Assembly (NCBI GenBank): GCA_039000515.1
Contig: JBCFYV010000259.1
Span: 124,001-188,000 of the forward strand
Source of the DNA: Timema cristinae
Lineage: Eukaryota; Arthropoda; Insecta; Phasmatodea; Timematidae
DNA: 64,000 bases
Direction: 5' to 3'
Each line of letters begins with the position of its first letter. The stretch's first letter is position 1. Below, piece after piece: positions 3,551 to 60,284 of the stretch. Made by a program: the position numbers and the translations under genes. The notes beneath the pieces were generated by a model. That model saw only the letters and a list, made by a program, of their open reading frames with translations, had not been told where the DNA came from and made no database searches.

Positions 3551-6500
3551 GATTGTATACTACTCGTAATAAAATACAAAAAATTCAATTGTTTTCTGTT
3601 TTGAGTAAATTGTTGTCCCATACAGGAGCGTTTGGTGTGAAGCACTTTAAGGCCCTGTCGAGTGCAAGTCTAAAACCTATTTTGTGGATGGTGGGTGGGA
3701 GGGTGAAAGGCATGGCGTGGCTCCACAACCGACCAAAGTATCCTTCCACGCCAACAAGAACAGATGGATCACGAAAACCGTAGATGGTGTCAGTTACCGG
3801 ATATGTCTTGTGGAAAAATCAAACGTTTGGAAATATAAGTTTTCTCGAGAACGAGTGAAATTTTATAATAATATTTTCAACGCCTCTTCTAAGATAATGT
3901 ATCAATGTTTATTAGGTGTTACATTTTCTTATTTTTTGTTACTCAGCCCGCAGTTTTCTATTGAAAAATGCCAGAATTATTGATATCTGATCACTGTTAA
4001 AATTATATAGTAGGTGTGTATATAAAACGTCTAACTTAATCAACATGCTTCTATTCTTGAACAAACCGTTATCGAAAAGAAAATTGCAAGACATTAAAAA
4101 TTTTTGAAGATAACTGTTTATTCCCATGGATCTGCATTTCAACGCCAAATGAAAAGGACAAATCGCCTTAACTCGACTTGCAACAAAGACTATTATAATT
4201 GGGTCTTAATTAAAAAAAGGAGTAACTCGTTAAAGAAGAACAAGCACAGATTATATAACGAAAGGGTGTTTGCCTGAATGCAACAATAATTTAAGTTGGA
4301 TGGAACTGGAGAGTTGAGGTTATGCAACAATACACAACACTGCTAGGGCTTTACGGCTACATGACTTTAACTTAGTAAGCAAGGATTAGAACAATAGCTA
4401 AACAATACCTAAATCTGTAATGTCCTAGTTTAAAGAGTTACCACGTTGGTGGTTAAGCGGGTTAGCTAGCATGATTTGACTCCCTAATGAGTTACAAGAT
4501 TCAAAGGTTAAGTTCCTAGAACTGGAACTATAAGTTTACAAATAGTTAAAGGCGAGCTACCGGGAATCTGGGCTGTAGAGATACTATGGCCGGTCTATTC
4601 CTCATTAGTACTGTCAGGTCATTCAATAGTGCATTTAAATTTCAACACCAGTAGGGAGACAGACTATAGCAAACAGTTAAAACATTAACAGATCCAAGTG
4701 GCACCAGAAAGGGGCCGGACAAAATAAACAACACCATGCAGGCCACTACTTTGGAATAGAAGCATACCCACGAGGTAAGCTCCGTACAAAAGTACAACAA
4801 TAGAAAGATTAGAGACTGGTATCAGTCAAAGACCCAACTAGGTCATGGGACAAAGCGATAGATTACCTGATCTCACCTTTTTCCCTATCTAAAAGGTAAA
4901 GCCATCTGACACATGGCCACACAGTATAAGGCGTCGGGTAATAATCACCCAAACATTTTGTCATATGTCATATGGACAAAGAAAAACAGTTCAGAAACTC
5001 TGATATTCAAAATTATATCATATGGACATATCAAAACAGATTAGAAACTTTAACATTTAAAATTATTTCATATGGACATATCAAAACAGTTTAAAAAGAC
5101 CCTATCTAAAATACTAAATATTAAATTAAATTAAATTATATCAGATATTACATTATCTGCAGTGAGAAGGCGAGATCGACGCGTCAAACATCATGACCAC
5201 CACATGTACGCCAACTAGTTCTTGAAGTCTCCTTGGATGCTCCTTCGATGAGTCGTTGGAAATGAATACAATCATGCTGCGAGAGGCGATGGCTTGTATA
5301 AGTGGAAGGGACAACATATAGGGGGAGGGGTAATATTCCAGAAAAACCTCAGAGAATTTACCAGCGCTTTAGTCGTCATCCACGACGTTGTGGAGCGGAC
5401 CGGCACTTCAGCCGAGTCTTGCAAATGAGCCAGGTGTGGCTAGTGGGTCCTCCGGTTAGAGTTGGCTGTAAACTTAGCCAGCATTCCCTTTGAGCTGGGC
5501 CATTTTCAACAACACGATTTCACCGTGAGTTAAAAATATTCCACATATTATTTGAATTTATTAGTTCTTGCACGTATAGAGAAGATCATGAATTAGGTAT
5601 TTTTGAGTGTACGTGCTAATAGCTATTTAGCACGTTACAGATTATTGACTCATGAAAAGGTAGGCCTATGACTTTTAACCAATGATTATCTAGAAAATCT
5701 TATAAGTTAAGAACGTGATCCACAAATGAGAATGAAATAAAATATTTTTGCCACATCCCTTATAGATACCGGACAAAAAAAAGACTCGGTGCATGGATAA
5801 ATAACTTATAAAAAGGTACTGTCACATCACGCGTGAAGTGATTGATATTTATTTACGGTTATGTGCACAGTGTCAGGTCAAAATGAAATGCTCCCTTTTT
5901 ACTACAACCGTTAAAGAAAGAATGACATCTTAACAAATAAATACAAAGGGATTGGTAAGAGGGCATGTTTGAAACTAACTGGTAACTTGCTAAGAATAAA
6001 CCAAAAGCTATTATAGTTTTAAATAAAATATACTTTATTGGTAAATAAGAATATAAATAAATAGATAGATATAATTTTTAAACCCAGAAGGGGAACCATT
6101 AGAATAACAATAAAAAAAACAATTTTTGTAAATCGAATAAGATACACAAGAGAGACAACAGCTCCCTTATTTATAATCAGACTTAGAATTGTAATGACTA
6201 TAAAAAAGCCATGCCTTATCTGAAATATAAGATAGTTGCAATTCAAGGAAGCTAACAACTTTCTATATCTCTAATTTCTATCCAAACACACTATGAAAGT
6301 TGCATTATACATTAAACTATCTAACTTGCCAATATTCAACAAATAAATTCTAACTCGAAATTAGGAAAAAACAAAATATTCCAAAGGATATTTTTCTACA
6401 ATCAACTAGCTGAGAAAATTCCTGAAGGGAATCGCTTCATATTCCACACATAATGAGTTTACTAAATTCAATTAAAATATATCTCTGATAGGAAATAACC

Positions 6501-7584
6501 TTATCTTTACTAACATAAATCAAATGAATTACCTAACATTTGACATGAGTATGGATATATTTTCCTGATGGGAAAATATTTAATATTACAAACCATATTC
6601 AAATTATATTCTATACCAAATGGCTTCAAACAATTTATATTCTCGATAAGAAGTAACCAAATGTTTACTAACATAAATCCTAACATTACAACAATATGAA
6701 TATATTTTTCCTGTTGGTAAAATTTGTTAATGTTCCAACTAATGTATATCAAAGTCTAAAACAACCTAACATTGCAAATCATATGAATATATTCTCCTGG
6801 CTGAAAAATATTTAATATCTCAAACATAATGACCATATAAAAAAAATTGTAGCGTACAATATTGAGCTTACATTTAGATATGATGGCCACTACTGGCGTA
6901 GTGCCGTAATTCCTTTTGCCGCCAAGAGTGCCTTACTAGTCACTCCACGGACTATACATAATGCCCAATGTCCTAGGAGAGGTGGAAAGGAAACATTAGA
7001 AGGGGTGACGAGGGTTAACAGAACATAGTCTCCGTATCACTCTTGCAACTCCTGAACTCAAACCTTCTGGCAGTCAGTAGAAAGCCTGAGTTTCTTCCAG
7101 CATGTTTTTTTTTCCATCTGGAAGGTATTGGATTTATTTCTGAACGTATTCTTGCAGGGATAATGACGTCATGCTGGCCCGCCCCAGGCGCGGATCCAAA
7201 GTAGGAGTTTGGGAAGGGTGGGGCGATAATGACAGAGAGGGTTTTGAGGTGGTAACCCCAAGATGGACATGGGGGAGGTAAACCACCATAAAATTTAGAA
7301 ATTGTTGGTTTTGAAATGATTAAATTTAATTGTTCTAAGCTCTTGTATATTCAATTTTTTTTCCACATTTCATTAAAAAAATATATAATAATACTTGTGT
7401 TGCTTATTTTTATATTTGTACAATATACCAACAATTGCACTGACGTATGATTTTAATTCTAATTAAAGGCTAGTTTTTTAGTCTAAAATATTAAAAAAGG
7501 GGGGAAACTATGCCTGGCAGAGAAAATATTGCTGGCATGAGCTAGAAAAACAATTATACAAACACAGTATAATTTCTTCTAAAT

Positions 7585-7587
<3 letters not shown>
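3551..7587. other. Intergenic region with minor repeats, no gene seen
   Basis: No coding evidence. A possible SINE head (GTGGTTAAGCGGGTTAGC) starts near 4450. A diverged motif ('gaatatattttcctg') recurs near 6550, 6700 and 6785 in an AT-rich stretch. Confidence 0.5.
4969..5118. repeat. 50-bp tandem repeat, three units
   Basis: Units start with CATATGGACA at 4969, 5019 and 5069 and continue through 'tcaaaacag' and 'aaaattat'. The spacing is exactly 50 bp twice. Confidence 0.8.
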
Positions 7588-7636
<49 letters not shown>

Positions 7637-7675
7637 GCACCGCGTCTTACTACCTGTTCGGGTTATACGCACTTC
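7588..7675 (-). repeat. (ATT)n plus truncated SINE 3' end
   Basis: A run of ATT triplets (7588-7636) is followed by AGCACCGCGTCTTACTACC and the GTTCGGGTTATACGC tail shared with the SINE at 12.6 kb. Read on the minus strand this is a SINE 3' end followed by its (AAT)n tail, that is, a 5'-truncated insertion. Confidence 0.65.
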
Positions 7676-7914
7676 TAAATAGTAGTTTTTTAAACTTAAA
7701 TATAAACATACTGTAATAAAACTTAATGATGTGAATAATAAATTGAGATAAGAGACAATAAAAAAGATAAACAGAAAATATTTGTAATTGATGTTGCAAT
7801 GAATAAATGAAGAAAACCATCAGTAACTTTACAAAACGAATTCAATCCTGTGGGTGCTATTTATTGCGAAGCGATAAATGACACGTTCTTTGTTTACAAT
7901 GAAATTATAATAAA

Positions 7915-32175: not shown

Positions 32176-32815
32176 AGTAGTGGAAGCGGTCGGATAAAAC
32201 AGGCTGGGATTGGTGGGATTTGGTCACGTGACCACGCCTCCTGCTCTGTGATTGGCTGCTCCCCTCCTTCCCCCGCCCCTCCTTCCCCCGCCCCTCCTTC
32301 CGCTGCCCTACTTTCCTCTGATTGGCTGTTGGTTTTCCCCTCCCCTACAAACCCTGGACATGTTGGTTCTTTTTTATTAATTATCGTTAATTGATTATTG
32401 TTAATTAATTAATTAGTTAATTGGTAGGATAGAGGCGTTGGAGTTATTATTGGTAGGATAGAGGTTTTTTTTATTCATCAATTAGGGCGCTGTAGTTTAT
32501 TTGCTGAAGCATAGAGCCACCCGGGGCTCGCGCTCCACGTCTTTCTCCTCCGATTGGTAGGATAGAGGCGTTGGAGTTATTATTGGTAGGATAGAGGTGT
32601 TTTTTATTCATCAATTAGGGCGCTGTAGTTTATTTGCTGAAGCATAGAGCCACTCCACGTCTTTCTCCTCAGGATGCGCGATAGTAAATGACACAAGCTT
32701 CTCCGGCAGGGGCTCGCTGCCTTCTGATGACCAACTCAGCCTTTCACTTTTCATTCCCCCACCCCTCCCCCAGAGCCGGGGTTGTTCATCCTGGTTTTCC
32801 CCTCCCCCGGTCATT
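32176..32815. repeat. Element B left terminal inverted repeat
   Basis: About 640 bp, matched in inverse by 50,529-51,149. From the end inwards it has GGTCACGTGACC (32,222-32,233), inverted CCAAT at 32,251-32,255 and 32,321-32,325, GC boxes (CCCCGCCCC, 32,271 and 32,286), an AT-rich (TTAATTAA) segment, and a 134-bp direct duplication starting with GGTAGGATAGAGG at 32,422 and 32,556. Confidence 0.95.
32222..32255. promoter_or_regulatory. E-box and CCAAT box in left TIR
   Basis: The 12-bp palindrome GGTCACGTGACC and an inverted CCAAT (ATTGG), 46-80 bp from the element end. The CACGTG core is the binding site of MYC/USF/MITF-type bHLH proteins and CCAAT is that of NF-Y (established). Function here is inferred from conservation in other TIRs. 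Confidence 0.6.
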
Positions 32816-35298: not shown

Positions 35299-36612
35299 TT
35301 AACTTCCATAATCGGTCACAACGTTTCTGTCCTTGTCAATGGTGATGATGTTGGCAAACTCCCCGTACACGATACAGTTTACGGTTTCGGTGAGAGCTCG
35401 GGTGAAGCTCACTTCGATGCTCAGAGAACCGTGTCTCGTCAAATTCCAATGTGATGTCATGTGGGCGGACAGATTAGGTGTGAGATCGAAAGCCATGAGA
35501 TGATATCCCTTGGGGAAGGCTTCTCGTGTGATGTCGCTACCCTCGTTCATGAAATGGATACCCGTTCCAGAAAACAGCGTGTGGTAGGACATGACATAGT
35601 GGCCGTTTGAAAAATCGGGCTGTAACGGTTTCGACGGTACTTGTTCCCCGTCCACGTACAGCGAGAAATGGTTCATGCCGTAGGTTTGAAAGTTGAACGG
35701 GTTCTTGGTGGCGTCTCCGTTGAACGCTGCGTTTGACACAAATCCCACGATGCACCGTTTGGGTAACTGGCCGGTGAATACGTTGTCCAGCGATTTCCCT
35801 TGCACGCCCGTAGGAATAGTGAGTGTTTTTACTTCCACACGGGTGATGGGATACTTTGCGGGACTGACATTTAGTGCTTTGGCGTGTGCCAACAGTATAG
35901 AAGGTGCAACTTTGACACGCCTCACTAGAAGGCCGGCTTCAACGATGTGAACCTTAAAGTGAGGGAGTTCAGGCACCGCCATAAGACTAAACCCGTCGCG
36001 GGAACGGACCAACCGGACTCGGAGTTCGGCGCCGTTCAAAAGGTATTTCTCTTGGTTAAACACGTCACCGTGTAGATACCCCAAAAGATCCACCGTCTTA
36101 CTTTTTGTGGTGAGACTGCGACGGGCCTCAAATCCCTTGTTGTTGGCGTTAGCCTCCTCAAAGGTTCCGGGGGTGTCTGCGAACCACAGACCGCAAGTCA
36201 AATGCGTTCTTTTGGCTTCGCTGTTGTAATTGAGCAGCGTCTCAATGTACGCTCTATAGGCATACGTGTTGCTGGGCGGTGATACTAGTTTTTGGTTTAA
36301 AAACACGTCCACCTGCGTGAATAGAGAATGCAGCCAATTGTTGACGGGAGCGATCTGATCCACCTCTGTGAAAGCGCCACCATCGGGTTTCATGATGGCC
36401 GCCCGGAGATAGAGCATAGTCTGTGAAAGATCGATATAGAACTCGCCTTGTCCGGTAACGGTAAATTCGATGGGTGAATCATCGGTGAGGGAAGAGACAG
36501 GTTTGTACTGGAGCCATTGCCCACTTTCAAGACTGGTTTGAGTGGGTGGCACGGAAAAGAGATCGAGTTCACTGCTGGCACACTCGCAGGACTGGGGGTG
36601 TAGAAACGACAT
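35299..36612 (-). CDS. Polinton major capsid protein (double jelly-roll, hexon-like)
   Basis: Intact 437-residue frame. The N-terminal MSFLHPQSCECASSELDLFS and the FTVTGQGEFYIDLSQTMLYL strand pair match the widespread 'F54H12.2-like' invertebrate proteins, which correspond to the Polinton major capsid protein. An IEFxIxGxGxxYIDLSxTxLxL block is the usual first jelly-roll entry. Later blocks LPKRCIVGFVSNAAFNGDAT and DLTPNLSAHMTSHWNLTRHG sit in the second half. At 437 aa it is shorter than adenovirus hexon and typical of Polintons. It follows the pVI-like gene with no spacer (1 nt between stop and next ATG) and precedes the protease. It is expected to form the trimeric capsomer. Confidence 0.9.
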   Translation of the reverse strand: MSFLHPQSCECASSELDLFSVPPTQTSLESGQWLQYKPVSSLTDDSPIEFTVTGQGEFYIDLSQTMLYLRAAIMKPDGGAFTEVDQIAPVNNWLHSLFTQVDVFLNQKLVSPPSNTYAYRAYIETLLNYNSEAKRTHLTCGLWFADTPGTFEEANANNKGFEARRSLTTKSKTVDLLGYLHGDVFNQEKYLLNGAELRVRLVRSRDGFSLMAVPELPHFKVHIVEAGLLVRRVKVAPSILLAHAKALNVSPAKYPITRVEVKTLTIPTGVQGKSLDNVFTGQLPKRCIVGFVSNAAFNGDATKNPFNFQTYGMNHFSLYVDGEQVPSKPLQPDFSNGHYVMSYHTLFSGTGIHFMNEGSDITREAFPKGYHLMAFDLTPNLSAHMTSHWNLTRHGSLSIEVSFTRALTETVNCIVYGEFANIITIDKDRNVVTDYGS

Positions 36613-36613
36613 T

Positions 36614-37060
36614 TTAACTGAAAATATCTTTGGCTTCTTTCTTGACCTTTTTACGTCGGGTGACGACCTTAGAATGACGTCGTTGCTTCTTACGACGCCC
36701 TTTATAGCCTGAGCCGGTCATCAGCGTGTTGATCTTCTGTTCAGCCTTGCGTTTCAAGTTTGTTCCAGCCTCGCCGACACGTTGCCGTAGGGCCTCTTTG
36801 AAAGGACGCCCTTGATTGGCAACGTCGGAGAGCACGTCGATTCCCGTATGAAGCGCCTGTTTTCCGATGGCTTTAGCGCCACTTCTCAGCAACGGTACGA
36901 CGCTTTTGAAAAGACCACTGAAAAAACTTCCTATCCCATGCCCTCTTTGATAGGGAACACCGTGGTAGATCGAAGATATTCCTGTTCCAGCCTGGTTGAT
37001 GTAGTATCTTTGGTAGGGACAGTTCATGTTGAGCAGCGTCGAAAATGAAGTTTCACGCAC
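36614..37060 (-). CDS. pVI/core-like capsid protein with amphipathic helix and basic tail
   Basis: 148 aa from Met 37,060. A second Met at 37,027 (MNCPYQRYY) forms an ATGA overlap with the penton stop and is the likelier start (137 aa). Layout: short N-terminal region, then GIGSFFSGLFKSVVPLLRSG (residues 42-61), an amphipathic membrane-active type of helix, a KAIGKQAL/GIDVLSDV stretch, and a very basic C-terminus (YKGRRKKQRRHSKVV, 119-133). Three adenain-type sites are visible: Q23-AGT|G27, Q38-RGH|G42 and M114-TGS|G118. This resembles adenovirus pVI (membrane lysis on entry) joined to a pX/mu-like basic peptide. Such proteins are standard in adintovirus-like Polintons. Role inferred. Confidence 0.75.
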   Translation of the reverse strand: MRETSFSTLLNMNCPYQRYYINQAGTGISSIYHGVPYQRGHGIGSFFSGLFKSVVPLLRSGAKAIGKQALHTGIDVLSDVANQGRPFKEALRQRVGEAGTNLKRKAEQKINTLMTGSGYKGRRKKQRRHSKVVTRRKKVKKEAKDIFS

Positions 37061-37791
37061 ACTTTTCCAAACTCGAATGGTACAGGTTCACCCGTGTCGG
37101 TTCTTATATTGATTTCCAAGCTTTCAATTTCCCTTCTCAGCACCGGCATGTAGTGCAACGGGTCGTAGCTAACTGTCTTATGTATGCCGTAGAGATAGTT
37201 TACGTTGTTGATGCCGACGATACGTAACAGCGGTGCCACAATGTCACCCACGGGCTGAGGCTCGACAATATCCGTGTATATGTACATTTGCGAGGGCAGG
37301 CCTAGTAGAATGTTGGCGGCGTACGGAGACTTTGGTACTTTTATCAGATTAGTCTTAGGATCGAAACCGAGCTGCAGAATTAGTTGAGTTGATAGACTCA
37401 ACAGCTGTATATTTGGTGAAGAAGAGATAACTACCACTTTATTGTTGGGGTTTGTGTACTTGAATACAACTCCGGAATCCCCTTTAAAAGCCTCTACTTC
37501 GTTTAGAGCTTTGATCAATTCGTGGATAGTGCTGTAGTTTCCAGCAGGGATATGATCCTTGAATATTTGTTCCACGCCGTTAGCGTCCACCCAGTTGTAC
37601 CATACAATATTTTGGCCTTCGGGTACGGTGGTGAAAGAACAGGGATATTGAAATTCAGCCAGAGCGACTTCCCACCGCCCTTCGAGTGTAAGACGGTAAG
37701 GAAGTTGCGTGGTGAAATTCGTGAGGGTATTTTTCGGGAAATATCCCATAGAGCTGTCGCTCGGCAAAGTGATGTAAAATTGGTCCTTCAT
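37024..37791 (-). CDS. Penton-like minor capsid protein (single jelly-roll)
   Basis: Intact 255-residue frame beginning MKDQFYITLPSDSSMGYF, followed by NTLTNFTTQLP and WEVALAEFQYPCSF. This is the signature N-terminus of the Polinton minor capsid (PY) family, predicted to form the pentameric vertex. The start is supported by the element A paralogue, whose homology begins at the same Met. The stop overlaps the likely start of the pVI-like gene by 4 bp. It is transcribed after the integrase gene. Confidence 0.88.
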   Translation of the reverse strand: MKDQFYITLPSDSSMGYFPKNTLTNFTTQLPYRLTLEGRWEVALAEFQYPCSFTTVPEGQNIVWYNWVDANGVEQIFKDHIPAGNYSTIHELIKALNEVEAFKGDSGVVFKYTNPNNKVVVISSSPNIQLLSLSTQLILQLGFDPKTNLIKVPKSPYAANILLGLPSQMYIYTDIVEPQPVGDIVAPLLRIVGINNVNYLYGIHKTVSYDPLHYMPVLRREIESLEINIRTDTGEPVPFEFGKVCVKLHFRRCST

Positions 37792-41204: not shown

Positions 41205-41209
41205 TTATT
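41204..41209 (-). terminator. PolyA signal overlapping the PolB stop codon
   Basis: The minus strand reads CACGAATAAAAGG: the AATAAA hexamer (41,209-41,204) contains the TAA stop of PolB (41,207-41,205). Compact overlap of this kind is common in small viral genomes. Confidence 0.6.
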
Positions 41210-44200
41210 CGTGGCGAGCGCGTTTACAAGGACTCTGATACCCAAACGGCAACGTATTAAAATCATCTGTTATCCTGCGTTTGGTGTACACGGGCCGGTA
41301 GACTTTAGCCTGCGAAACGGTACATACAGTCGCAAGACCTTTTCTTACAATTTTGTGCGGTATCTGTATGTATCTTTCCGCAGCCTGTTCGGTGACCATC
41401 GCTTTCAAAACTTCAAAATTAACATCGTTCCGGTTGCCATAGTTTATGGTGATCCCGCGAACCTTGCACACCGTTTTTGTTTTGGCAGGATCACCGCCAA
41501 CGCAAACTCGGTAAGCGTAATTTTTGGGACCGCCAGATACAAAGGCGCTAATGTAGCTTTCCGGACCGTAATCCTGAAGTTCATCAGTGAGGTCACCTAA
41601 AAAGTCTCCGGTCGGTGGACTCCAATCGCCGGGGCGTTCGGTGAATAGAACGCTATCTGTATCATGATATAAAACGCGGTCCCCCAATTGTTCAAGGATG
41701 CTGTATAAGTGCAACCTAGCCATAGCAGTCGTGTAGCACGCCACCGCCACACTCGTGTTAGGGTTAGGGCGCAACGCGTCACGCGCATCCTTGTAATTGA
41801 GGAACATAACCTCATCATTTACATCAATGACGCTGTCCACGGTGATGTACGGATCCGTCAGGTACTTGTGGACGCCCTGATAGTCGTTGACAACGGCTAC
41901 GTGTGGTAAATCGGGTCTTTGCCCAAACTTTCCCCATAGTGAATTTAAAAAAAGTTTAGCAAGAGTGCGGAGACCAGGGTTTTTACAAACAGAGCCGAAA
42001 TCTAGTTTTACCCCTTCCCTTTCCTCATAATTTTGAATGTATGCTAACTTTTCCTCCTGTGAGGTACACCACTCTGGCCATCCGCTGGCTTCTTGTTTAA
42101 TTTTCAAAAAAGTATCAATGTACCTGTGAAACAACCCTCCAGAACGCGTCTGACGGTCATAAACAGATACATTGTACTCCCACACTTCGTGCACTGCTTC
42201 AACGGTGTAGCCTTTCTCAACGGCTTTCCGGATCTCGTCAATCACCCAGACGCCTGTCAACCAGCGATCTTTTTTGTCGTTGTGCTGACACGCGCCTTGG
42301 TTTTTCTCCTCCCCGCATTTCCTGCACAAGATGGACATTAGCTTGTCGTGCATCCTGGTAGGCAATACGGGCAGGAATAAATCTCGCGGAGGCGTCACTG
42401 TAACTTTGGCTATGCCTTCTACTTGATCTATAGACGGACAATTTGGTTCCAAGTGAATTTTGGGGTGGCCGACTGGGTATTTTTTGTACTTGCAAACGTA
42501 TGGATACAATGAACACACATCCAAGTACTTGATTTTCTCCCCACAAGAAAGGTCTGTTTCGTGGAAGAGCTTGATACAATTTGTACGCCCGCCAAAGAAT
42601 GCATCCCTGGGACTGAGAGGTTCCTTAGTATGCACCTCGTGCCGGAGTACAAATTGCTGCAAGTCCTTGTCTGTGCGTTTCATCGCATTAAACATGCACT
42701 CCCACATCTCTACGACCGTGTAGCCGGCATTCTTAAACCTTTCCAAACAAGCCATGGTCGCTTCATAACGCGTCTCCATGGTCTCGTGGGGGCTATTTTT
42801 GACGGGGGTGGTCCTGTCAGGGTAACAGAGAGGGCACCCGTGCCAATAACAGCCCCAAAACTGGAAGACGGTGGTGGTATCTCCAGCTTTAACAACACCG
42901 TCTACACGTCGCCCTAACACATATTCCTCACGGCCGTTACCCGCATGAAGAATAGAGACACCGCGTTGATGGGCCTCCCAGCAGAGCCATTGTACAGCGA
43001 CGTGCGACTGTTGGTCTGCGCACCGATAGCCACCGTTAGGGATAATACCGATATAGTATTCTCCTTAAGATGACTTCGGCGGTAAACCAACATGGCCGCT
43101 CCAGCTATCGTACACGCCTCTCTGAAAGGATCCACCTTTGCTTTCTCCATGAGCATCTCTCTAAACTTCAGGCAGGCCTTCCGTAGGATCTCTACATCTT
43201 TCACACAATACAGTTCCAACTCGCGTTTAAAATCAAAGACATAGTTATCTTTGACCAACGCGTCATACCACTTCTCAAAGTGCTCCTTTCCCTCAACTGA
43301 CATCTCACCGATGCCGTAGTCCTCCTTTGGCGGCAAGGGACCCCTATACCCCGCGTTTTCTTTTTTATTGAAAAAATGGGGGAAATGTCCCTTGGCCAAA
43401 GACTCGTCCAAGCCGAAAGTTTTGGGCAATTTGGACAGCGACATCGGGAGAAAGTTCAGTGAGTCAATAAAGTGGAGCGGGCCGTAACGCATGGACATGA
43501 TTTTCCCACCATTCATTATAAGTTCTGGAGTCCATTTTTTAACCTCCATCATATATTTTAAAATAAAATTTCCATCATAGGATTTAGCGTTATGGCCGAG
43601 GAGGGTGATATCCTTAAATTTTGAAGCTTTAATTTGAACAATAAATTCGAAAAATTGGGCCATTGTGGTATCACCCTTGAATATGCGAGTCCTATCGCCC
43701 CCACAGTCGGTGCAATGATAGTCATTTGCATCTATATGAACACAAGCCTTACAACACGTTTGCACGACACATAGGTTAGGTTCGTGCAAGTACGTGCCTG
43801 CCGCACCTTGAAGAAGCGTTTCTTGTCTGCATTCAAAATCATAGAACACAAACATGAAATTGCTCTTTTCCAGTGACGGCTTTGACGGGGCCTGCTTCAT
43901 ATAGCAGAAATGACCAAAAGGGCGATGGGTCTCACATACTCTACAAAAAGTCTCATAACACCTATGTGAATAATTTGATTTTTCCAAACTGAAAAATTGC
44001 CCGCATACCTCACAAACCTTTTTGACTTCACAGACCGACCTGTGACCGCTGAAAAAACCAGGACGTTTATGGTTATCAAAGCACGTCTGATTTGTGAACC
44101 AACGCCCGCAGTCTTTACAGACCACAGATCGGCCTCCGCTACAAACCGCTTTAGCGTAGCACTTTTTGCACGCGGATTCACACTTGTGCGCATTCTTATG

Positions 44201-45385
44201 ATCAAATGGCACACGGCATTCGCGACAAAAGTACGAGCACTTAAATGCGGCTGTCAAGGATGTTATGACGTCAAAATTGTTTTGCTTATCATCGTGAAAA
44301 TACAAATCAAGGTGCCCCTTAAAGGAATGTTCGGAGGGTGTAGGCCCCTCATACAAGACCTGTCTCCCCCGACGTTCCCTGAACACGGTGATTTTGTATT
44401 CGGAAAGGTATGCTTGAAATTGTTTCAGCTCAGTGAGCCCACCACCTTTCAAAAGATTCACACAGGCATCACGGCATAGTTCCTCTGCTTCGAGTTTTTG
44501 AATAGGTCGACCCATTTTGATTTGTCTAAAGGTGTTCACGTCCATGCATCCTGGCTCTCTTTTATTGTCACATATAGCTTTGGCGACAACCAATGCACGG
44601 GCAAGACAAAGTGTGTCGTCATTTTGAATCGTAATGATCCCTTTGTTATTACGGCTATATGTGCTTGCGGGAGAGAGTTTATCACAATAACGTCCACTCC
44701 CGCGAGGCTCCTTAAAGTGGGAGAGTTTAACGTACAATGGTGCAGTACTCAAAAACAAACTATTACTCTGCAGCACGCGACTTACGTTATCAAGCACTGC
44801 TCTAGCGTCTAGCTGGTCTGCTCGTCTAAATGAGACATACACAGGGCTTAACGTTGAGTCAGTGCTACTCAAAAGTAAGCCTACGTGGTCATCGGCGCTA
44901 ACGCCATGGTCCTGCAACCGATGGAGCAAATTAGTAATTTGTTCTTCAAGCCAGCTTATTGCGTCACGATCGCTTGCTGGTGCACCAAGATGTACGGTAA
45001 TTTCTCTACCAGTATAAAAGAAACGCCTCAATTGTTTAATCCTCTCTTTGATGATGCGAAGAGGGACGCCATTTTGCAATTCCCCACCTACTTGATTAAC
45101 AAGGCCACTAATTCCGTGTTGAGGGGCAAAAGACGGTCCCGCTATCGCCGGCTCCACGGGCCCCATCTCCCTCGCCGCCGCCGCCGGGGCTCGAACTCCG
45201 TCTCCCTGCTGTAGAGGCCGGAGTGAAGATGTTCCGGCTTGCAGGGACACAGGGGCTCGAACCCCTTCTCTCTGGAGCTGGGGCGATGCGGCTACATAGG
45301 GCTGGAGGGGTCCCACCGCTGGTGATGGTGGCTCTGTGGTCATCCCGCCATTTCCGGCCTCCAATTCAACTATAACACATGTCAA
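41205..45385 (-). CDS. Protein-primed family B DNA polymerase, one frameshift
   Basis: The N-terminal part (823-residue frame from ATG 45,385) has a Pro-rich leader, a Cys/His-rich region (CRECRVPFDHKNAHKC onwards), and the exonuclease motifs FYDFE (about residue 517), YDGNFIL (about 603) and YCVKDVEIL (about 730). The C-terminal part (frame at 42,920 and upstream) has motif A LDVCSLYP, motif B NSLWGKFG and motif C YHDTDSV. The frames switch near 43,041-43,055, between the TIAGAAMLVYRR block and the FWGCYWHGC block, by a net 1- or 2-base change. All catalytic motifs survive on both sides. It would replicate the element from a terminal protein at the TIRs. A start at Met-15 is also possible. 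Confidence 0.93.
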
Positions 45386-45433
45386 AGTAAGCCTTGTTAC
45401 AACAGGCGCATATTTTTTTCTTTAAAATGTATA

Positions 45434-46567
45434 ATATGTTTGAATTTTTCAATTGCTTTAGACGTAACAGGCATTTACAGAAGTGAGTCAGCGTTTGCGG
45501 GGGAGGGAGAGTGAAAATTTGTCTCTAGTTTACCTTGGTAAGATTCGAACCTAACACTCATCTCTTTAATACTTTTTGTATTATTATTATTATAGCATGT
45601 TCAATTTTTCAATTGCTTTAGACGTAACCGACATTTACAGAAGTGCGTCAGCACTTGCGGCGGAGGGAGAGTGAAAAAAATTGTCTCTAGTTTACCTTGC
45701 TAAGATTTGAAGCTCAAACTCATCTCTTTAATACTTTTTGTATTATTATTATTATAGCATGTTCAATTTTTCAATTGCTTTAGACGTAACCGCCATTTAC
45801 AGAAGTGCGTCAGCACTTGCGGTGGAGGGAGAGTGAAAAAAATTGTCTTTAGTTTACCTTGCTAAGATTTGAAGTTCAAACTCATCTCTTTAATACTTTT
45901 TGTATTATTATTATTACTATAGCATGTTCAATTTTTCAATTGCTTTAGACGTAACCGCCATTTACAGAAGTGCGTCAGCACTTGCGGCGGAGGGAGAGTG
46001 AAAAAAATTGTCTCTAGTTTACCTTGCTAAGATTTGAAGCTCAAACTCATCTCTTTAATACTTTTTGTATTATTATTATTATTATTATTATTATAGCATG
46101 TTCAATTTTTCAATTGCTTTAGACGTAACCGACATTTACAGAAGTGCGTCAGCACTTGCGGCGGAGGGAGAGTGAAAAAAATTGTCTCTAGTTTACCTTG
46201 CTAAGATTTGAAGCTCAAACTCATCTCTTTAATACTTTTTGTATTATTATTATTATAGCATGTTCAATTTTTCAATTGCTTTAGACGTAACCGCCATTTA
46301 CAGAAGTGCGTCAGCACTTGCGGTGGAGGGAGAGTGAAAAAAATTGTCTTTAGTTTACCTTGCTAAGATTTGAAGTTCAAACTCATCTCTTTAATACTTT
46401 TTGTATTATTATTATTACTATAGCATGTTCAATTTTTCAATTGCTTTAGACGTAACCGCCATTTACAGAAGTGCGTCAGCACTTGCGGCGGAGGGAGAGT
46501 GAAAAAAATTGTCTCTAGTTTACCTTGCTAAGATTTGAAGCTCAAACTCATCTCTTTAATACTTTTT

Positions 46568-46599
<32 letters not shown>

Positions 46600-46762
46600 G
46601 CATGTTCAATTTTTCAATTGCTTTAGACGTAACCGACATTTACAGAAGTGCGTCAGCACTTGCGGCGGAGGGAGAGTGAAAAAAATTGTCTCTAGTTTAC
46701 CTTGCTAAGATTTGAAGCTCAAACTCATCTCTTTAATACTTTTTGTATTATTATTATTATAT
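45434..46762 (-). repeat. Tandem array (8 units, 162-177 bp) derived from a SINE
   Basis: Units start at 45,434, 45,596, 45,758, 45,923, 46,097, 46,259, 46,424 and 46,601. They differ mainly in the (ATT)n length. Variants recur with period three: the units at 45,758 and 46,259 both have 'cggtggaggg' and 'gtctttag', and the spacings are 162, 165, 174, 162, 165, 177. So a three-unit block of about 501 bp was itself duplicated. The unit shares 'ggagggagagtg' and an antisense B-box-like region ('aagattcgaacc' in the first unit) with the SINEs at 1.5-2.9 and 12.6 kb. Confidence 0.9.
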
Positions 46763-47616
46763 CATTTTAGCAGCGCAGATTACGTCTTAAGATACTTTTC
46801 GCTTTAATTGTTTTCAACTACGAATGTGTCAATTTATTGAAAAAAAAAACGCCTGAGATTATGCTCGCGTAATGAATTGATAGCTATGATACTAGATGTT
46901 GTTTCTAACGCCTGCATAATGAGTGGATAGACAGCCCGCCGCACTTAACACAACGAAAGTTAGACACCTTAAAAGGGGTAGTAAAATTTGAGTTTATAAC
47001 AGCTTTCTTTAAATCGGGGAAAAATATGTTCAACCCTTTTCAAAAAACATTTGTTTGGTTATCATAAGCTACTAGCTGCCTCCTATATTTGAAATATGTA
47101 TCTAGAGGCAGCTGTATCCTTAACATGCATTACTTTATTTATAAAATAAGCACAACTTTTAAGATTATGTTTGGCGGTAAACAAAAGACGGTAATAAATT
47201 GACAGAGGAAATGTACAGCCCTTAACTAAAATACATTTTACTATATTAAGCCTGCAACGTGTAAACATACATAAGAACACGTAAACATTTAGACTGGAAT
47301 TAAAAAAAGTACGCCCTAAAGTGTCAGCCAGACACAAATTTAGTACAAGAAGAATAAACTCTCATTTTCATCCCCTGTTTGGATTCGAACCCGTGGCACT
47401 GCATACATATAGTTTTTAAATTGGTTACTATTACACATCATAAATTAAAGTGCACGGACTTATGTTTATGCAGAGTGAAACGTGACTGTCTAAAGTGTTG
47501 ATTACAATTTTCTGACTTTGTACAGGAAATGAACCCGTGACCAGGAGACACTAAAATGATACTCGATCACATTGTAAAACGACAATTATAATTTTCTGTC
47601 TTTGAACCCGGGACCC
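46763..47616. other. Non-coding spacer of element B right arm
   Basis: No protein-like frame. Four antisense tRNA-T-arm-like phrases (GAACCCG variants) lie near 47,382, 47,531, 47,604 and 47,673, suggesting old SINE fragments at intervals of about 70-150 bp. Confidence 0.5.
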
Positions 47617-47622
47617 TTTATT
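47617..47622 (-). terminator. Candidate polyA signal of the spliced gene
   Basis: AATAAA on the minus strand, about 175 nt after the stop codon in exon 4. Confidence 0.4.
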
Positions 47623-47795
47623 GAACAAAATAGTTGACTAAACCAGTATTTTCGCTTATCCCAAGAGGGAATTGAACCAAGGACTCCCCCCCACTGGCTC
47701 AGTATAAATCATACAGGTAGGATTTTTAATAAACGTTTAAGTAGCAATATAGTTTTCCTTGCTCTAAACTGTAAACACACGCATTCTTTTATACA

Positions 47796-48506
47796 CTAAA
47801 CGATGTAGTACAAGCTCACTGCTAGCAATTGTTTTCGACTCTGAGGGGCGATATAACAGGATTTGTGCGAGAGAGAGAAAGCTACACTGCCTACTGGCTA
47901 CATGTAGAAGGTACTTACATAGCAGTCGGTCAAGGGTGTCCAAATCTGCCCAAACAGCGGGAGGTGCATTTCCCATGGCGACGAGGGGCACCGGTGGTAG
48001 GGGCGCGGGCGCAAAGATACATGGAGAGGGCCTGGGGGCGACATCAGTGGCGTCGTGAGTGGCACCGATTCGTAAGGGCGCCTCCGGGGAGTCGATGTCT
48101 CTACAACTGACGGTATGCACCCCCGAAGCCCTTCGTCTAAACCGTACGGATCCCAGTAGTCTGAAATTAAATAAATACAAATTAATTAGCATTTACAGGA
48201 AAAAAAAAAAAACACCAACAAGACTCCAATATATATGTTTTTAGTCTGTTACTTACCCATCGACGCGTTACCATCAGCGTTGCAAATTCCGTTTTCATCG
48301 AACAGTAGCAGCTGGTCCAGGCTATTGGGATCCTCCGGTTGTAGATCCCCTCCAATCATCGGGGGCTTTTCAACTAACAAAAAAGAAAGAACACCATTGT
48401 ACACCCCAGCTGTATTAGTCAACAAAAAAAAAAAAAACACCAGTTAAAATATACAGAAAAAAAACTTACCTAAATTTAGAAAATTTTCTAGCGACTCGAA
48501 ACTCAT
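47796..48506 (-). CDS. Spliced four-exon accessory gene of element B (146 aa, unknown)
   Basis: Predicted CDS exons are 48,506-48,470, 48,373-48,257, 48,160-47,919 and 47,840-47,796. All three donors are GTAAGT. Acceptors are TTTTTTGTTAG, TTAATTTCAG and CGCCCCTCAG, each after a pyrimidine-rich tract. Phases (1, 1, 0) join without a stop into 441 nt. The protein is acidic and hydrophobic near the N-terminus (SLDQLLLFDENG; DYWDPYGLDEGL), then Pro/Arg-rich (TSTPRRRPYESVPLTTPLMS; PRPYHRCPSSPW), with an aromatic C-terminal region. I recognise no family, and no LxCxE motif is present. Alternating acidic-hydrophobic segments recall transcriptional activation domains (inference). A TATA box lies 61 bp upstream of the ATG. 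It is upstream of PolB, an 'early gene' position. Minus-strand open frames that run through introns here are artefacts. Confidence 0.7.
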
Positions 48507-48566
48507 TTTTTGATGTTCGGCGGCGTCAATCACAAATTGAAATGACCAAATGTAATGAGCGGGTTC

Positions 48567-48574
48567 TATTTATA
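48567..48574 (-). promoter_or_regulatory. TATA box of the spliced gene
   Basis: TATAAATA on the minus strand, 61 nt before the start codon, giving a 5' UTR of about 30 nt if transcription starts about 30 nt downstream. Confidence 0.75.
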
Positions 48575-48786
48575 CCCTCTTCAAAGAGCCTGCCATCTGT
48601 AATGACCTAATACTCTAATGTGTCTCTGCGCATGCGCAACACAGACCTGTCCATAAGTCCCTTTGTAAATCCCGTTATTTCAGTAGTCGGCATCGACCCA
48701 GCGAAGTGGACGGAGGTGCCTGCTCGATGCTCTGTTCCACTGCCTTAAATATGAGTGAAGAATGACCCTGAGCACGGAACGAATCC

Positions 48787-48862
48787 TGGATAGCTCAGTG
48801 GTCAGAGCAATGGCGTACTAAGCCAGAGGTCCCGGGTTTGGAACTTGAAACCTTACCTTAAA
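48787..48862 (+). repeat. tRNA-derived SINE head or tRNA pseudogene
   Basis: TAGCTCAGTGGTCAGAGCA is a good A-box/D-arm. TGGC GTACTAA GCCA forms an anticodon-like arm and CCCGGGTTTGGAAC is a poor T-arm. No matching acceptor stem, so not a functional tRNA. Confidence 0.6.
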
Positions 48863-48984: not shown

Positions 48985-49250
48985 AGGTAGCGTAGTCTAA
49001 GGCGTCACTGCCAATGCCTGGGAGGTCGCGGGTTTGATTCCCGTTCTGGTACATGACCATTCTAGGTGTCAGCCCTCCCGCAAACGTAGACCAAAGGTGT
49101 TTTTTCCGCACCCTTCGTGAAAATGCGGGTACATTTTCCGTCCTCCTATCTACTTAGCGGGGTTCATCATTGGTTTGACTTCGAACACTGAGGCAAATGC
49201 GGGTACACTATCCCAAGATATTAAATACCGTGTGTGAACTCGTCACCTTA
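48985..49250 (+). repeat. tRNA-derived SINE
   Basis: The head has GTAGTCTAAGGCG (A-box) and GCGGGTTTGATTCCCG (T-arm), as in tRNA-Leu/Ser-derived SINEs, followed by a body with 'aaatgcgggtacatt' and a related 'caaatgcgggtacacta' 70 bp later. Confidence 0.6.
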
Positions 49251-50099: not shown

Positions 50100-50300
50100 A
50101 CTAACTAATCGGGCCGTCGGTAAGGCGCTCAGTAATTTGATGGTCTCTGGTTCGAATCCAATCTAGACACACGAATTACAAAATAACTTAGCTATAGAAC
50201 AGTAAATTCACCGTGCAAACGGGCGTCGCTAAAATCTACCCTCCCTCAGTGCATCTGAAGGTACTCTCGCAAATGTTGAGTGCATTGATGTGTGGGCTTA
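50100..50300 (+). repeat. tRNA-derived SINE fragment
   Basis: GTCGGTAAGGCGC (A-box-like) is followed by a perfect B-box GGTTCGAATCC at about 50,147. The 3' boundary is not defined. Confidence 0.55.
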
Positions 50301-50528: not shown

Positions 50529-51149
50529 TAATGACCGGTGGGAGGGGGAAAACCAGGATGAACAACCCCGGCTCTGGGGGGAGGGGTGGGGAGGGAAAAG
50601 TGAAAGGCTGAGTTGGTCATCAGAAGGCAGCGAGCCCCTGCCAGAGAAGCTTGTGTCATTTACTATCGGGCATCCGGAGGAGAAAGACGTGGAGTGGCTC
50701 TATGCTTCAGCAAATAAACTACAGCGCCCTAATTGATGAATAAAAAACACCTCTATCCTACCAATAATAACTCCAACACCTCTATCCTACCAATCGGAGG
50801 AGAAAGACGTGGAGCGCGAGTGGCTCTATGCTTCAGCAAATAAACTACAGCGCCCTAATTGATGAATAAAAACACCTCTATCCTACCAATAATAACTCCA
50901 ACGCCTCTATCCTACCAATTAACTAATTAATTAATTAACAATAATCAATTAACGATAATTAATAAAAAAGAACCAACATGTCCAGGGTTTGTAGGGGAGG
51001 GGGAAAACCAACAGCCAATCAGAGGAAAGTAGGGCAGCGGATGGAGGGGCGGGGGAAGGAGGGGAGCAGCCAATCACAGAGCAGGAGGCGTGGTCACGTG
51101 ACCAAATCCCACCAATCCCAGCCTGTTTTATCCGACCGCTTCCACTACT
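50529..51149. repeat. Element B right terminal inverted repeat
   Basis: Inverse of 32,176-32,815. It contains CCAAT at 51,015-51,019 and 51,070-51,074, GGTCACGTGACC at 51,092-51,103, the same internal 134-bp duplication, and ends ...CCGCTTCCACTACT. An outward-reading open frame (50,491-50,736) is mirrored in the left arm. Confidence 0.95.
51070..51103. promoter_or_regulatory. E-box and CCAAT box in right TIR
   Basis: Same arrangement and distance from the terminus as in the left TIR. Confidence 0.6.
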
Positions 51150-56449: not shown

Positions 56450-57850
56450 GTGTCCCCGGACTTTAGGTTCAGTTTCGATTGTCATGTTGATAAGGTTCAT
56501 AATCGCGTAATTTTGTTGTATGTCTTTCTCACGAACCTGTTGGGTGGTTTCTTGATTTTGTGTTTGATTGTATCTCTATTAATTAGTTCAAGTGTATTTT
56601 TGTTTATTGTACTAATATTGGTCAACATGAGGTTCGTAACTTTCACTCGGCAATACGACCTTATAAAGAAACGCCTTGTTAAGATTAGGGAGTTAGTAAT
56701 GAAAGCAAATTCCATTGGGGACAAAGGGGAAGTATTGTCCGAGTATCATATTCGAAAACTAGCTTTGTTCAAAAAGGAAGTGGAGTCCAAACGTAATGAG
56801 TTTGAAGTGTTGCTATCTAAGATTGTTTCGGAATAGATTGAGGATTTCAATAATGATATTGTAATTCAAAATCAAGACGAAATATTTGAATTACATACGT
56901 TTTTAAGCTGTATAACAATGTTACTTCCCACGCCTGAACCTCAACTGGACGATTCAAGTCACTCCACGCCTAGTGGGTCTATGGTTCCAACGCCCTCTAT
57001 ACACTTACCGAAAATTTAACTACCGACCTTCTCTGGTGATTCATCACAGTGAATGAGTTATCACAATTTATTCAACATAACTATTCACCAAAATTCCAGC
57101 TTAACACCTGTTGAAAAATGTCATATCTGATGTCAACTCTAAGCTTAGAAGCGTGTAATTTAATTAAGAGTCTCCCCCTTTCCGCCCCCAACTATCAGAT
57201 AGCCTACGCTTTATTGTGTAGTCGCTATCACAACATAAGAAACTTAACTTCTCTTTACATAAATAAAATAATTGATTTGCCTCATGTCACTAGTGGGTCA
57301 CTCAAGAGCCTACGTAACATGCTCAGTAGCTACGATGAAAACAGTCAAGCTCTCCACGCTCTTGAACAAGACACAGCTCTCGAAGGTCCTCTATTGTTTT
57401 CATTGTTGTTGCAGAAACTCAACAGCGACACTCGACACAGGTTCGAGACCAGCCGCGGTACAAATGTAAGTTTACCGATGGTAGATGAACTGATTAAGTT
57501 TTTACATCTTGAAGCGTCACACCTTGAGTCAGCCAACAATGTGAATACTACCCAAAAGCACCCGCACACTTCTCATACACCACAAGTTTCTTACTCATTG
57601 TCAAGGATGCCAGGTGGCATCAAACTCACGTCCTATCAAAATCACAAGGTCACGCTATTATCCACCCCTCACACTAATTGTGTTTTTGTAAAGCTGACAC
57701 TCATTCAATTTATCGCTGTCCAGATTTCCAAGTCGAAACTCCTCAAGAAAGATTTAATTTTGTATAAGCTAATGGAATATGTTATAATAGTCTTGGTCAC
57801 TCTCACACACTGAAAAACTGTGAATCAGCACGTTCATGTAAAAAATGTAA
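56450..57850 (+). pseudogene. BEL/Pao gag region
   Basis: A coiled-coil-like N-terminal part (56,630-56,836; RQYDLIKKRLVKIRELVMKA) ends in a stop. A DUF1759-like part (57,118-57,600; LPLSAPNYQIAYALLCSRYH) follows in another frame. Zinc-knuckle sequence (CYNSLGHSHTLKNC, then CKKCNKRHH) lies at 57,780-57,860 in the pol frame after a 1-base loss near 57,685 and an in-frame TAA near 57,763. Gag would build the retrotransposon particle. This copy is broken. Confidence 0.85.
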
Positions 57851-57875
57851 TAAAAGACATCACACTTCACTACAT

Positions 57876-58880
57876 TTGGACCCAGACCCGTCTAAGGTTG
57901 CTCAAGGTCACTCTACTCGTCCACCGCACAACACCCAGAGTTTTTCACGTCAACAAGCATCAGCCAACGTATCAACCACAAATACTCCGTTTGTTGGTTT
58001 GTCACACGTACATAACACCGTGCTTTTAGCAACAACTCTTGTTAATCTCTCAACGGCTGATGGTGTCTCCCTTGTTGTTCGTGGAATATTGGATTCTGCT
58101 GCTCAAAGTACTTTCATCACGGAACAATGTGTTCAATTGCTACAGGTTAAACGCACTCGCGCCTCAAGATCAATCAATGGTATTTCCCAAGCTTTGGTAA
58201 ATACTAAAGACTTAACTTATCTTAATATTTCGTCTCTGAATGGAAATATAATATCCCGAGAGTATCCCATATTAATATTGGATAAGATAACTTCAGATCG
58301 TCTTCGTGCAGCCCTTTCACCTGACATAAAAAGGAAGATAGCCTCCTTTTTCCTAGCTGAACCCACATTTGACACCCTGGCATCCATAGATATCCTCTTA
58401 GGTGCAGACTTGTTTGCACAAATTATGACTGGTGACCAATATATTCTCGGAAAAGACCTGCCCATTGCCTTTGGTACTGTTTTTGGTGTCGTCCTTATGG
58501 GACCCACCCCCTGCTCTGCACCCAGTGTACCTCCAGCACATTTTAATGGTGTCAACACTCTGCTCTCCACCAATGATATCGACCTTCACTACTCCTTTCA
58601 AAACTTCTGGAAACTTGAAGAACCTCCACATAGCGTGGGCCTCTCTAAAAAAGAACAATTATGTGAAGATAATTTTGTCTCTAAGCACACTCGAGATGAT
58701 ATCGGTCGATATGTAGTACGACTCCCATTCAAGGAATCTCACCCTCCTCTCGCTGACTCGTCAAATAAGGCAAGAAATAGATTTAATGTTTTAGAACGAC
58801 GATTTGCTAGTCAACCTCAATTCAGACAAATGTATGTTCACTTCATGGAGGATTATCTTACAGCTGGTCACATGACTTAA
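57876..58880 (+). pseudogene. BEL/Pao aspartic protease and start of reverse transcriptase
   Basis: 334-residue open segment. VRGILDSAAQSTFITEQC is the DUF1758 retropepsin active-site region (D-S-A in place of the D-S/T-G seen in many). VFGVVLMGP and the later FNVLERRFASQPQFRQMYVH and MEDYLTAGHMT are typical of the protease-RT junction in BEL/Pao polyproteins. It ends at an in-frame TAA where the family continues into RT. Confidence 0.88.
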
Positions 58881-60284
58881 TGCAAATCACCTCCCACTAT
58901 TAACTCACCACACTACTTCTTGCCCCACAATGGAGTCATGAAATCAACCTCATCCACAACTAAGCTACGGGTCGTTGTCGATGACAGCGCCCGCACCTCT
59001 AACTCAGTTTCGTTAAATCAGGTTTTATCACCTGGGCCTAAACTTCAAAATGATATTTGTGATGTGATCACTCACTTCCGTCGCCACCCCATAGTCTTCT
59101 CATGCGATATTAGACAAATGTACAGACACATCTTGATACACCTTGATGATCAAACGTACCAATTGATTTACTGGCGTGACAGTCCCGCAGTACCTCTTAC
59201 TGTCTACCAACTTAGCACTGTCACTTATGGAACTACCTCGTCCCCATATCTTGCACTAAGAACTCTTCGCCAGTTAGTGAAGGATGAAGGACACAACTAC
59301 CCGCGTGCATCCAAAGTATTGCCAACACAAATTTTTGTAGATGATGCAGTTTGTGTAGAAGACATCATAGAAGATGCGCTACTTCTCCAAGATGAACTTA
59401 CCAAGCTGTTAAAATTAGGAGGCTTTGAATTACGAAAATGGTCAAGTAATACTACTCAACTTCTTGATTCAGTGCCACAGGACCATAGAGAAACCCCTCT
59501 CTATTTTCGGACACCAGAACAAGCATTGTTTAGCATTCTTGGGCTCCAGTGGACACCTGACTCTGACAACTTCTCCTATCGCATGCGAGTGACAGGAGAC
59601 GCTCACAAGCCTACAAAGCGTATCGTTCTTTCAATTGTGGCTCAAATCTATGACCCTTGTGGTTGGTTAACTCCTGTCGTGTTCTGAGTGAAGTCTTTCA
59701 TCCAGCTGTTATGGACATTAGGCCTACAGTGGGATGAACCCTTGCCTGCTTACATTGCTAAAAACTGGGAAAGATTTTTGAATAAGATTCCCGTGTTAGA
59801 AGCCATTATCGTACCACGATATTTCTATCTCGCTCCTGCTACCAACATTCAGCTCCGTGGGTTCTGTGATGCCAGTGAGGAAGGGTATGGGTGTTGCCTC
59901 TACCTCAGATGTTTTGACCACGACAACAAAGTGAGTCTTCTCATCGCCAAATCAAGTGTATCTCCTCTCAAAAGAATTTCCATACCTCGCTTGGAACTCT
60001 GCGCCGCTCACTTACTTGCCAAACTTATGTACTATTGCACTGACCTCTTATCACTACATTGCAAAATTGACTCAAGAACTGCTTGGTCAGATTCTATGAT
60101 TGTCCTCTCGTGGATTCATACATCACCATATCGGCTCAAAGTGTATGTGGCCAATCGTATCGCCCAAATCCAAGAATGGCTACCTCCTCACACTTGGATG
60201 CATATCGCTTCTCCCCACAACCCAGTGGACCGTGACTCTCGAGGTTTATCCCCTACAGATATCAACCAACATCCTCTGTGGTGA
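58881..60284 (+). pseudogene. BEL/Pao reverse transcriptase and RNase H
   Basis: The same frame resumes after the stop. YFLPHNGVMKS, TKLRVVVDDSARTSNSVSLN, SCDIRQMYRHI and the catalytic IFVDDAV box (motif C) are clear RT signatures. A TGA at 59,685 interrupts the frame. The next part (59,688-60,284) has LRGFCDASEEGYGCCLYLR (RNase H-like, first Asp), RLELCAAHLL (Glu) and WSDSMIVLSWI (Asp). Confidence 0.9.

Follow-up and report, generated by a model that had tools for sequence, protein, structure and literature searches.

A predicted spliced gene in the right arm of a Polinton

The window, by which we mean the whole 64-kb stretch of DNA analysed from a genome of 1.29 Gb, holds a Polinton of ~19 kb, and the gene unit described here belongs to that element. 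Terminal inverted repeats are present at 32176-32807 and 50540-51149, and the minus strand carries a PolB, predicted to be protein-primed, with DNA_pol_B_2 in two ORFs, as well as a retroviral-type integrase (rve, E 4.3e-15; Chromo, E 1.3e-05). Matches to an adenovirus-type protease (Peptidase_C5, 17.8 bits) and an A32-type ATPase (Pox_A32, 20.1 bits) on the same strand lie below the curated cut-offs, and the ORFs at 35299-36612 and 37024-37791, compared for capsid proteins, gave no Pfam match at E 0.01. The predicted spliced gene sits between PolB and the right inverted repeat arm, on the minus strand like PolB. An earlier note on this DNA had described the other genes of the element as uninterrupted, a description that PolB does not fit, being split here over two overlapping ORFs in different frames. 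The features are as follows.

32176..32807, no strand: left terminal inverted repeat region, imperfect and internally repeated (repeat search)
41205..45385, minus strand: Polinton PolB, two overlapping ORFs in different frames (DNA_pol_B_2, E 1.4e-18 and 1.5e-25)
47617..47622, minus strand: candidate poly(A) signal AATAAA (pattern only)
47730-47725, minus strand: second candidate poly(A) signal, ATTAAA (pattern only)
47796..47840, minus strand: predicted exon 4, 45 nt
47841..47918, minus strand: predicted intron 3, 78 nt, the least certain
47919..48160, minus strand: predicted exon 3, 242 nt in the window, with a one-nucleotide frameshift relative to most copies
48161..48256, minus strand: predicted intron 2, 96 nt, GTAAGT...TCAG, with a CTAAT branch-like site by eye
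48257..48373, minus strand: predicted exon 2, 117 nt, encoding LDQLL
48374..48469, minus strand: predicted intron 1, 96 nt, GTAAGT...TTAG, with a CTAAT branch-like site by eye
48470..48506, minus strand: predicted exon 1, 37 nt, starting with ATG (kept in 93 of 94 copies)
48567..48574, minus strand: TATA promoter element TATAAATA (exact in 92 of 94 copies)
50540..51149, no strand: right terminal inverted repeat region

All of the signals claimed in the earlier note were found on the minus strand, namely the TATA element, an ATG at 48506, 60 nt below TATAAATA, three GTAAGT donors at 48469, 48256 and 47918, and three pyrimidine-rich acceptors ending at 48374, 48161 and 47841. The exons have the lengths it gave (37, 117, 242 and 45 nt), the introns of 96, 96 and 78 nt compare with its estimate of ~80-100 nt, and the window copy read as four exons encodes 146 aa. 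Its judgment that this combination is unlikely by chance was borne out by 400 dinucleotide shuffles of the 824-nt stretch searched with strict splice signals, among which models with at least two introns arose five times (1.25%). Only one shuffle (0.25%) yielded a multi-intron model reaching 100 aa, and this model, at 173 aa, exceeded the 146 aa of the window copy. A cluster of three GTAAGT in 600 nt of a single strand is in itself less rare, each strand of the 64 kb having one. With the strict donor set, the automatic search returned no multi-intron model in three of four other copies (L088, L091 and L086) because donor 2 in these is GTAATT; in the fourth, L010, its preferred model was one of 183 aa that retains intron 3. 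A search of the genome for exon-joined copies across junctions 2 and 3, allowing up to three mismatches, gave no matches.

Several other features surround the gene. An array of ~162-177-bp direct repeats lies at 45430-46770, between PolB and the spliced gene, and tRNA B-box-like motifs cluster in the right arm at 47381-47678 (minus) and at 48784-48844, 49031-49041 and 50149-50159 (plus), with 44 such matches in the 64 kb against 20.1 expected. One tRNA match in the right arm near the gene is weak, at 23 bits against a gathering score of 29. Elsewhere in the window, a BEL/Pao-type retrotransposon remnant lies at 57118-60284 on the plus strand (DUF1759, Peptidase_A17 and a weak RVT_1).

Genomic copies and the family reading frame

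Copies were sought by a DNA search of the genome, in which the best 40 of 1054 candidate places were scored and showed 97-100% identity over the 1-kb stretch, and by tblastn, in which the best 150 of 1312 candidates were scored. The alignment consists of the window and 93 copies, taken from L001-L119 after repeats of the same place had been dropped; it is a non-random sample of best matches and chosen diverged copies, and L118 and L119 served for wider comparison only. The copies fall into lineage A, ~92-100% identical to the window, and lineage B, 84-90% identical (L062, L070, L078, L079, L084, L088-L092 and L095). PolB and the gene are collinear both in L119, a lineage A copy, and in L118, a lineage B copy, and we therefore count the gene as part of the element. 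A stretch of ~1.5 kb on the upstream side of the L118 promoter (6262-7795) has no match to the window arm at the threshold used, and the promoter-distal arm looks as if it had been exchanged.

Conservation of the signals in the 94 copies is high. Besides the promoter element (92) and the ATG (93), the GT of donor 1 is kept in 92 copies (of the GTATGT type in lineage B) and the AG of acceptor 1 in all 94; donor 2 has GT in all 94 (GTAATT in 17) and acceptor 2 has AG in 93; donor 3 is GTAAGT throughout and acceptor 3 is TCAG in 89. Given that most copies are young, this conservation is by itself weak. Lineage B, with its gene structure kept, is on comparison of the copies the stronger point. L088 differs from L010 at 23 of 58 sites in the 5' UTR, 9 of 37 in exon 1 and 22 of 86 in intron 1, and this divergence leaves the start, the exon lengths and the phases unchanged. 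In 6 of the 11 lineage B copies (L088-L092 and L095) the exons measure 37, 117 and 243 nt; in the remaining five, exon 2 or exon 3 is slightly altered in length. The earlier note had proposed a comparison of homologous arms; among the copies compared here, most of the 93 keep the signals, and 51 of the 94 lack the family product.

Relative to most copies, exon 3 of the window has a length change of one nucleotide, so that the C-terminal half predicted from the window is off the family frame; the gene in the window copy is, judged from the alignment, frameshifted relative to the family. When each copy is spliced with its own letters, 43 of the 94 (36 full length and 7 with in-frame deletions) end in ...WADLDTLDRLL, with a stop codon that arises where exons 3 and 4 join; in this family frame the first two bases of exon 4 finish the codon and the remainder would be 3' untranslated. 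Another 21 copies read into exon 4, as first predicted or nearly so, and 30 are truncated. The single frame over four exons that the earlier note had reported is therefore not a property of the family, and is present in the window only because of the one-nucleotide length change in exon 3. We rejected it as the family product, the LDRLL frame being commoner and also the one in which the exon 3 tail shows a silent bias. We likewise rejected a dual-coding design for exon 3, since the length difference between copies explains the conflict of frames. An apparent TAG shared in the four-exon frame is more likely to reflect frame drift upstream, and in that frame the tail has no shared stop change.

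Intact copies of the gene exist among those aligned, and frame-breaking shared 1-nt deletions are common, occurring in 13 and 2 copies in exon 2 and in 8, 16, 6 and 3 copies in exon 3. Such one-nucleotide length changes recur in unrelated copies in both exons. Some of the changes may be slippage or assembly error, as indicated by this recurrence and by a copy that matches the window at 99.9% identity over 4 kb, with 2 mismatches and 3 gap positions.

Variation in exons and introns

We compared shared differences, defined as those present in at least three copies with gapped cells left out; the resulting selection tests are mutually correlated, and their P values are uncorrected for several frames and cut-offs. 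Shared exon indels longer than 1 nt measure 6, 48 and 75 nt, and all three are multiples of three, which would happen by chance one time in 27 if lengths were random. The 5' UTR, intron 1 and intron 3 have shared indels of 2, 5, 2 and 28 nt among others, many of them in simple repeats; this count leaves out two longer runs at the start of the upstream region, which are ends of trimmed sequences.

Read in the family frame, the shared differences of the exon 3 tail comprise 14 silent and 12 replacement changes, where 7.9 silent ones would be expected (P = 0.010); with singletons included, P rises to 0.054. The frame of the four-exon prediction gives 11 silent differences in the same tail (P = 0.13) and the third frame P = 0.996. 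Exon 2 alone gives P = 0.165 in the family frame and P = 0.015 in another frame, which is closed by a stop. Exon 1 showed no constraint in the silent/replacement test; lineage B alters most of its FESLENFLNL, and the first leucine of LDQLL is altered in nine copies. For the CDS as a whole, tested at four count cut-offs, the silent excess gives P = 0.035-0.12, or P = 0.004-0.096 outside lineage B and L082.

At non-CpG positions of exons 2 and 3, 11 of 66 silent sites vary compared with 13 of 216 replacement sites (P = 0.011). The corresponding figure for intron 2, intron 3 and the downstream region is 20 of 333, which is indistinguishable from that for replacement sites (P = 1.0) and lower than that for silent sites (P = 0.0086); outside lineage B and L082 the counts are 8 of 66 silent, 10 of 217 replacement and 15 of 337 intron and downstream sites. 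Given that replacement sites are no slower than introns and that silent sites are faster, the contrast may owe something to base composition or mutability, and part of the silent bias may reflect exon mutability rather than constraint. The replacement/silent rate ratio of the gene is ~0.36, and PolB, taken as a yardstick, gives 0.18 (window versus L118) and 0.23 (window versus L119), so that the gene seems to be constrained, more loosely than PolB. The earlier note had proposed a test for purifying selection; a moderate silent bias was found, with exon 2 by itself short of significance and replacement sites as variable as introns.

When L010, L088 and L104 were compared, the exons appeared to evolve faster than introns 2 and 3, an effect that is largely due to CpG sites, yet exons 2 and 3 also exceed the downstream flank at non-CpG sites. 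CpG sites in exon 3 vary about four times as often as its other sites (17 of 60 versus 13 of 183), which suggests mutable, perhaps methylated CpGs in the element.

The signal statistics, the copies, the in-frame deletions and the silent bias all argue for a spliced coding gene in the Polinton right arm, which we consider highly probable. What does not stand of the TATA-driven spliced gene as first drawn is its C-terminal half, which is off the family frame.

The predicted product and its possible role

The product predicted from L010 is 132 aa long, with a pI of 4.05, a net charge of -18 and no lysine. It contains two LxxLL motifs, LDQLL and LDRLL; at least two arise in 1.3% of letter shuffles of the product, LxxLL being a low-information motif. 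Blocks without amino-acid alternatives in at least three copies include DQLLLF, SMDYWDPYGLDEGLR and WADLDTLDRLL. Composition windows and the two LxxLL place amphipathic motifs of leucine and aromatic residues in an acidic context, from which an activation domain is predicted. The L010 product has no basic NLS-like run, LxCxE, PxDLS or PxLxP. The earlier note had recognized no family, and this holds for Pfam (no match), for PHROGs (at best one unnamed family, E 0.14), for PDB sequences (weak matches only, the best at E 0.26) and for IMG/VR, where scans with PolB, exon 3, the integrase and a 437-aa ORF, as single-sequence queries that reach close relatives only, returned no relative. The segment DYWDPYGLDEG, which we took to resemble an E2F-like Rb-binding peptide, matched only Fgr and metalloproteinase weakly among PDB sequences (E of at least 0.26), and no such claim is made. 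Matches of the whole product to PDB "Fiber" chains (E 0.34-0.54) were taken as chance.

Promoter, position and composition make an early-regulator role plausible, and the explanation that we favour, tentatively and with doubt weighing slightly the heavier, is a spliced Polinton gene encoding an early activator-like regulator. In the interval from PolB to the right inverted repeat, the Polinton would possess a gene of its own that RNA polymerase II transcribes from the TATA promoter; the host spliceosome would process the transcript at two fairly confident introns and possibly a third. The gene would encode a short (~132 aa), acidic, lysine-free and probably disordered protein that acts, we infer, early and as a transcription-activator-like regulator. 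Its LxxLL-type amphipathic segments, in their acidic context, would recruit host coactivators through KIX/TAZ or nuclear-receptor-box contacts, and this recruitment would turn on element genes or host cell-cycle genes, as in adenovirus E1A, without the motifs of the latter. We hold this activator mechanism as possible, with slightly greater reserve than the explanation as a whole.

It is also possible, if unlikely, that the gene is spliced and that its protein instead antagonizes a host factor, for example as a cell-cycle or ubiquitin-pathway adaptor working through short linear motifs. The acidic, lysine-free composition and the motif-like conserved blocks are consistent with such a protein, as is the description of adintoviruses with "oncoid" genes, which are mentioned in the available parts of PMC11071296 and PMC10812802 and defined by short motifs in the former. 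LxCxE, PxDLS and PxLxP are, however, absent from the product, and PDB sequences give no match below E 0.25. The window gene resembles the oncoid genes in being a small accessory gene of a PolB/integrase element with an interest in short linear motifs; it differs in that the L010 product has no LxCxE, and the likeness drawn here is one of features.

Intron 3 is, on present comparison, the doubtful one of the three, because the family frame stays open through it, for 51 codons, in 36 of the 43 family-frame copies (it is closed in 7). Its retention would give a product of ~183 aa with a basic C-terminal tail, and the automatic model for L010 and the lack of a clear branch site by eye point the same way. 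Donor 3 and acceptor 3 are nevertheless kept in 94 and 89 of the 94 copies, the intron carries the shared 28-nt deletion and 2-nt insertions, and it shows no silent bias (3 silent, 5 replacement, P = 0.40), all of which makes retention improbable.

That there is no gene, and that GC-rich promoter- or origin-like DNA with chance splice-like signals has spread with the element, we regard as very improbable: the copies are mostly young and share signals partly by common descent, exon 2 is not significant in the selection test and replacement sites are no slower than introns, but the shuffle test, the long in-frame deletions and the silent bias speak against it. Least probable is that the functional protein is the 146-aa form, to which exon 4 gives the tail SRKQLLAVSLYYIV, possibly as an alternative product set by homopolymer length, since the 21 copies that read into exon 4 (one in lineage B, L062), and the open alternative frame with its non-significant 11 silent differences against 7.9, are set against 43 copies in the family frame, a silent bias in the exon 3 tail that favours the other frame, and a 99.9%-identical copy with the 2 mismatches and 3 gap positions that slippage or assembly error would give.

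The favoured reading, a spliced gene for an early activator-like regulator, recalls adenovirus E1A, a terminal, TATA-driven, spliced gene for a short acidic disordered protein with LxCxE and PxDLS motifs. The window gene is also terminal, TATA-driven and predicted to be spliced, with a short acidic product, but the L010 product has neither motif and no sequence similarity was found in Pfam or PDB, so that the comparison is only of how the two may work. In the available parts of PMC8097293, intact vertebrate Mavericks have genes without introns, as Kapitonov and Jurka (2006) are cited there as having reported; they resemble the element described here in having a gene in the accessory region between core genes and inverted repeat of a PolB and rve integrase element, and differ in that theirs are reported intronless whereas the window gene is predicted to be spliced. 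Drosophila adintoviruses are described in PMC8363768, in whose main text, as far as available, the word "intron" does not occur, and the introns of polinton-like viruses in the accessible part of PMC12220804 are group I introns, of a different kind. Among the literature matches listed, mostly without subscription papers and so a weak absence, no spliceosomal gene in an animal Polinton was found, and the available parts of the Polinton literature examined name no regulator of Polinton expression.

More broadly, and rather doubtfully, some animal Polintons may have evolved or captured a spliceosome-dependent early transactivator, E1A-like without sequence relation, that would couple element activation to host nuclear splicing and possibly give two C-terminal isoforms through retention of intron 3. 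If real, a conserved spliced gene located where an early regulator is expected would offer a handle on the switch from silent insertion to expression and would connect the arms of Polintons with early regions in small DNA viruses. Dozens of near-identical copies share one genome, which puts the splice prediction within reach of ordinary RNA-seq.
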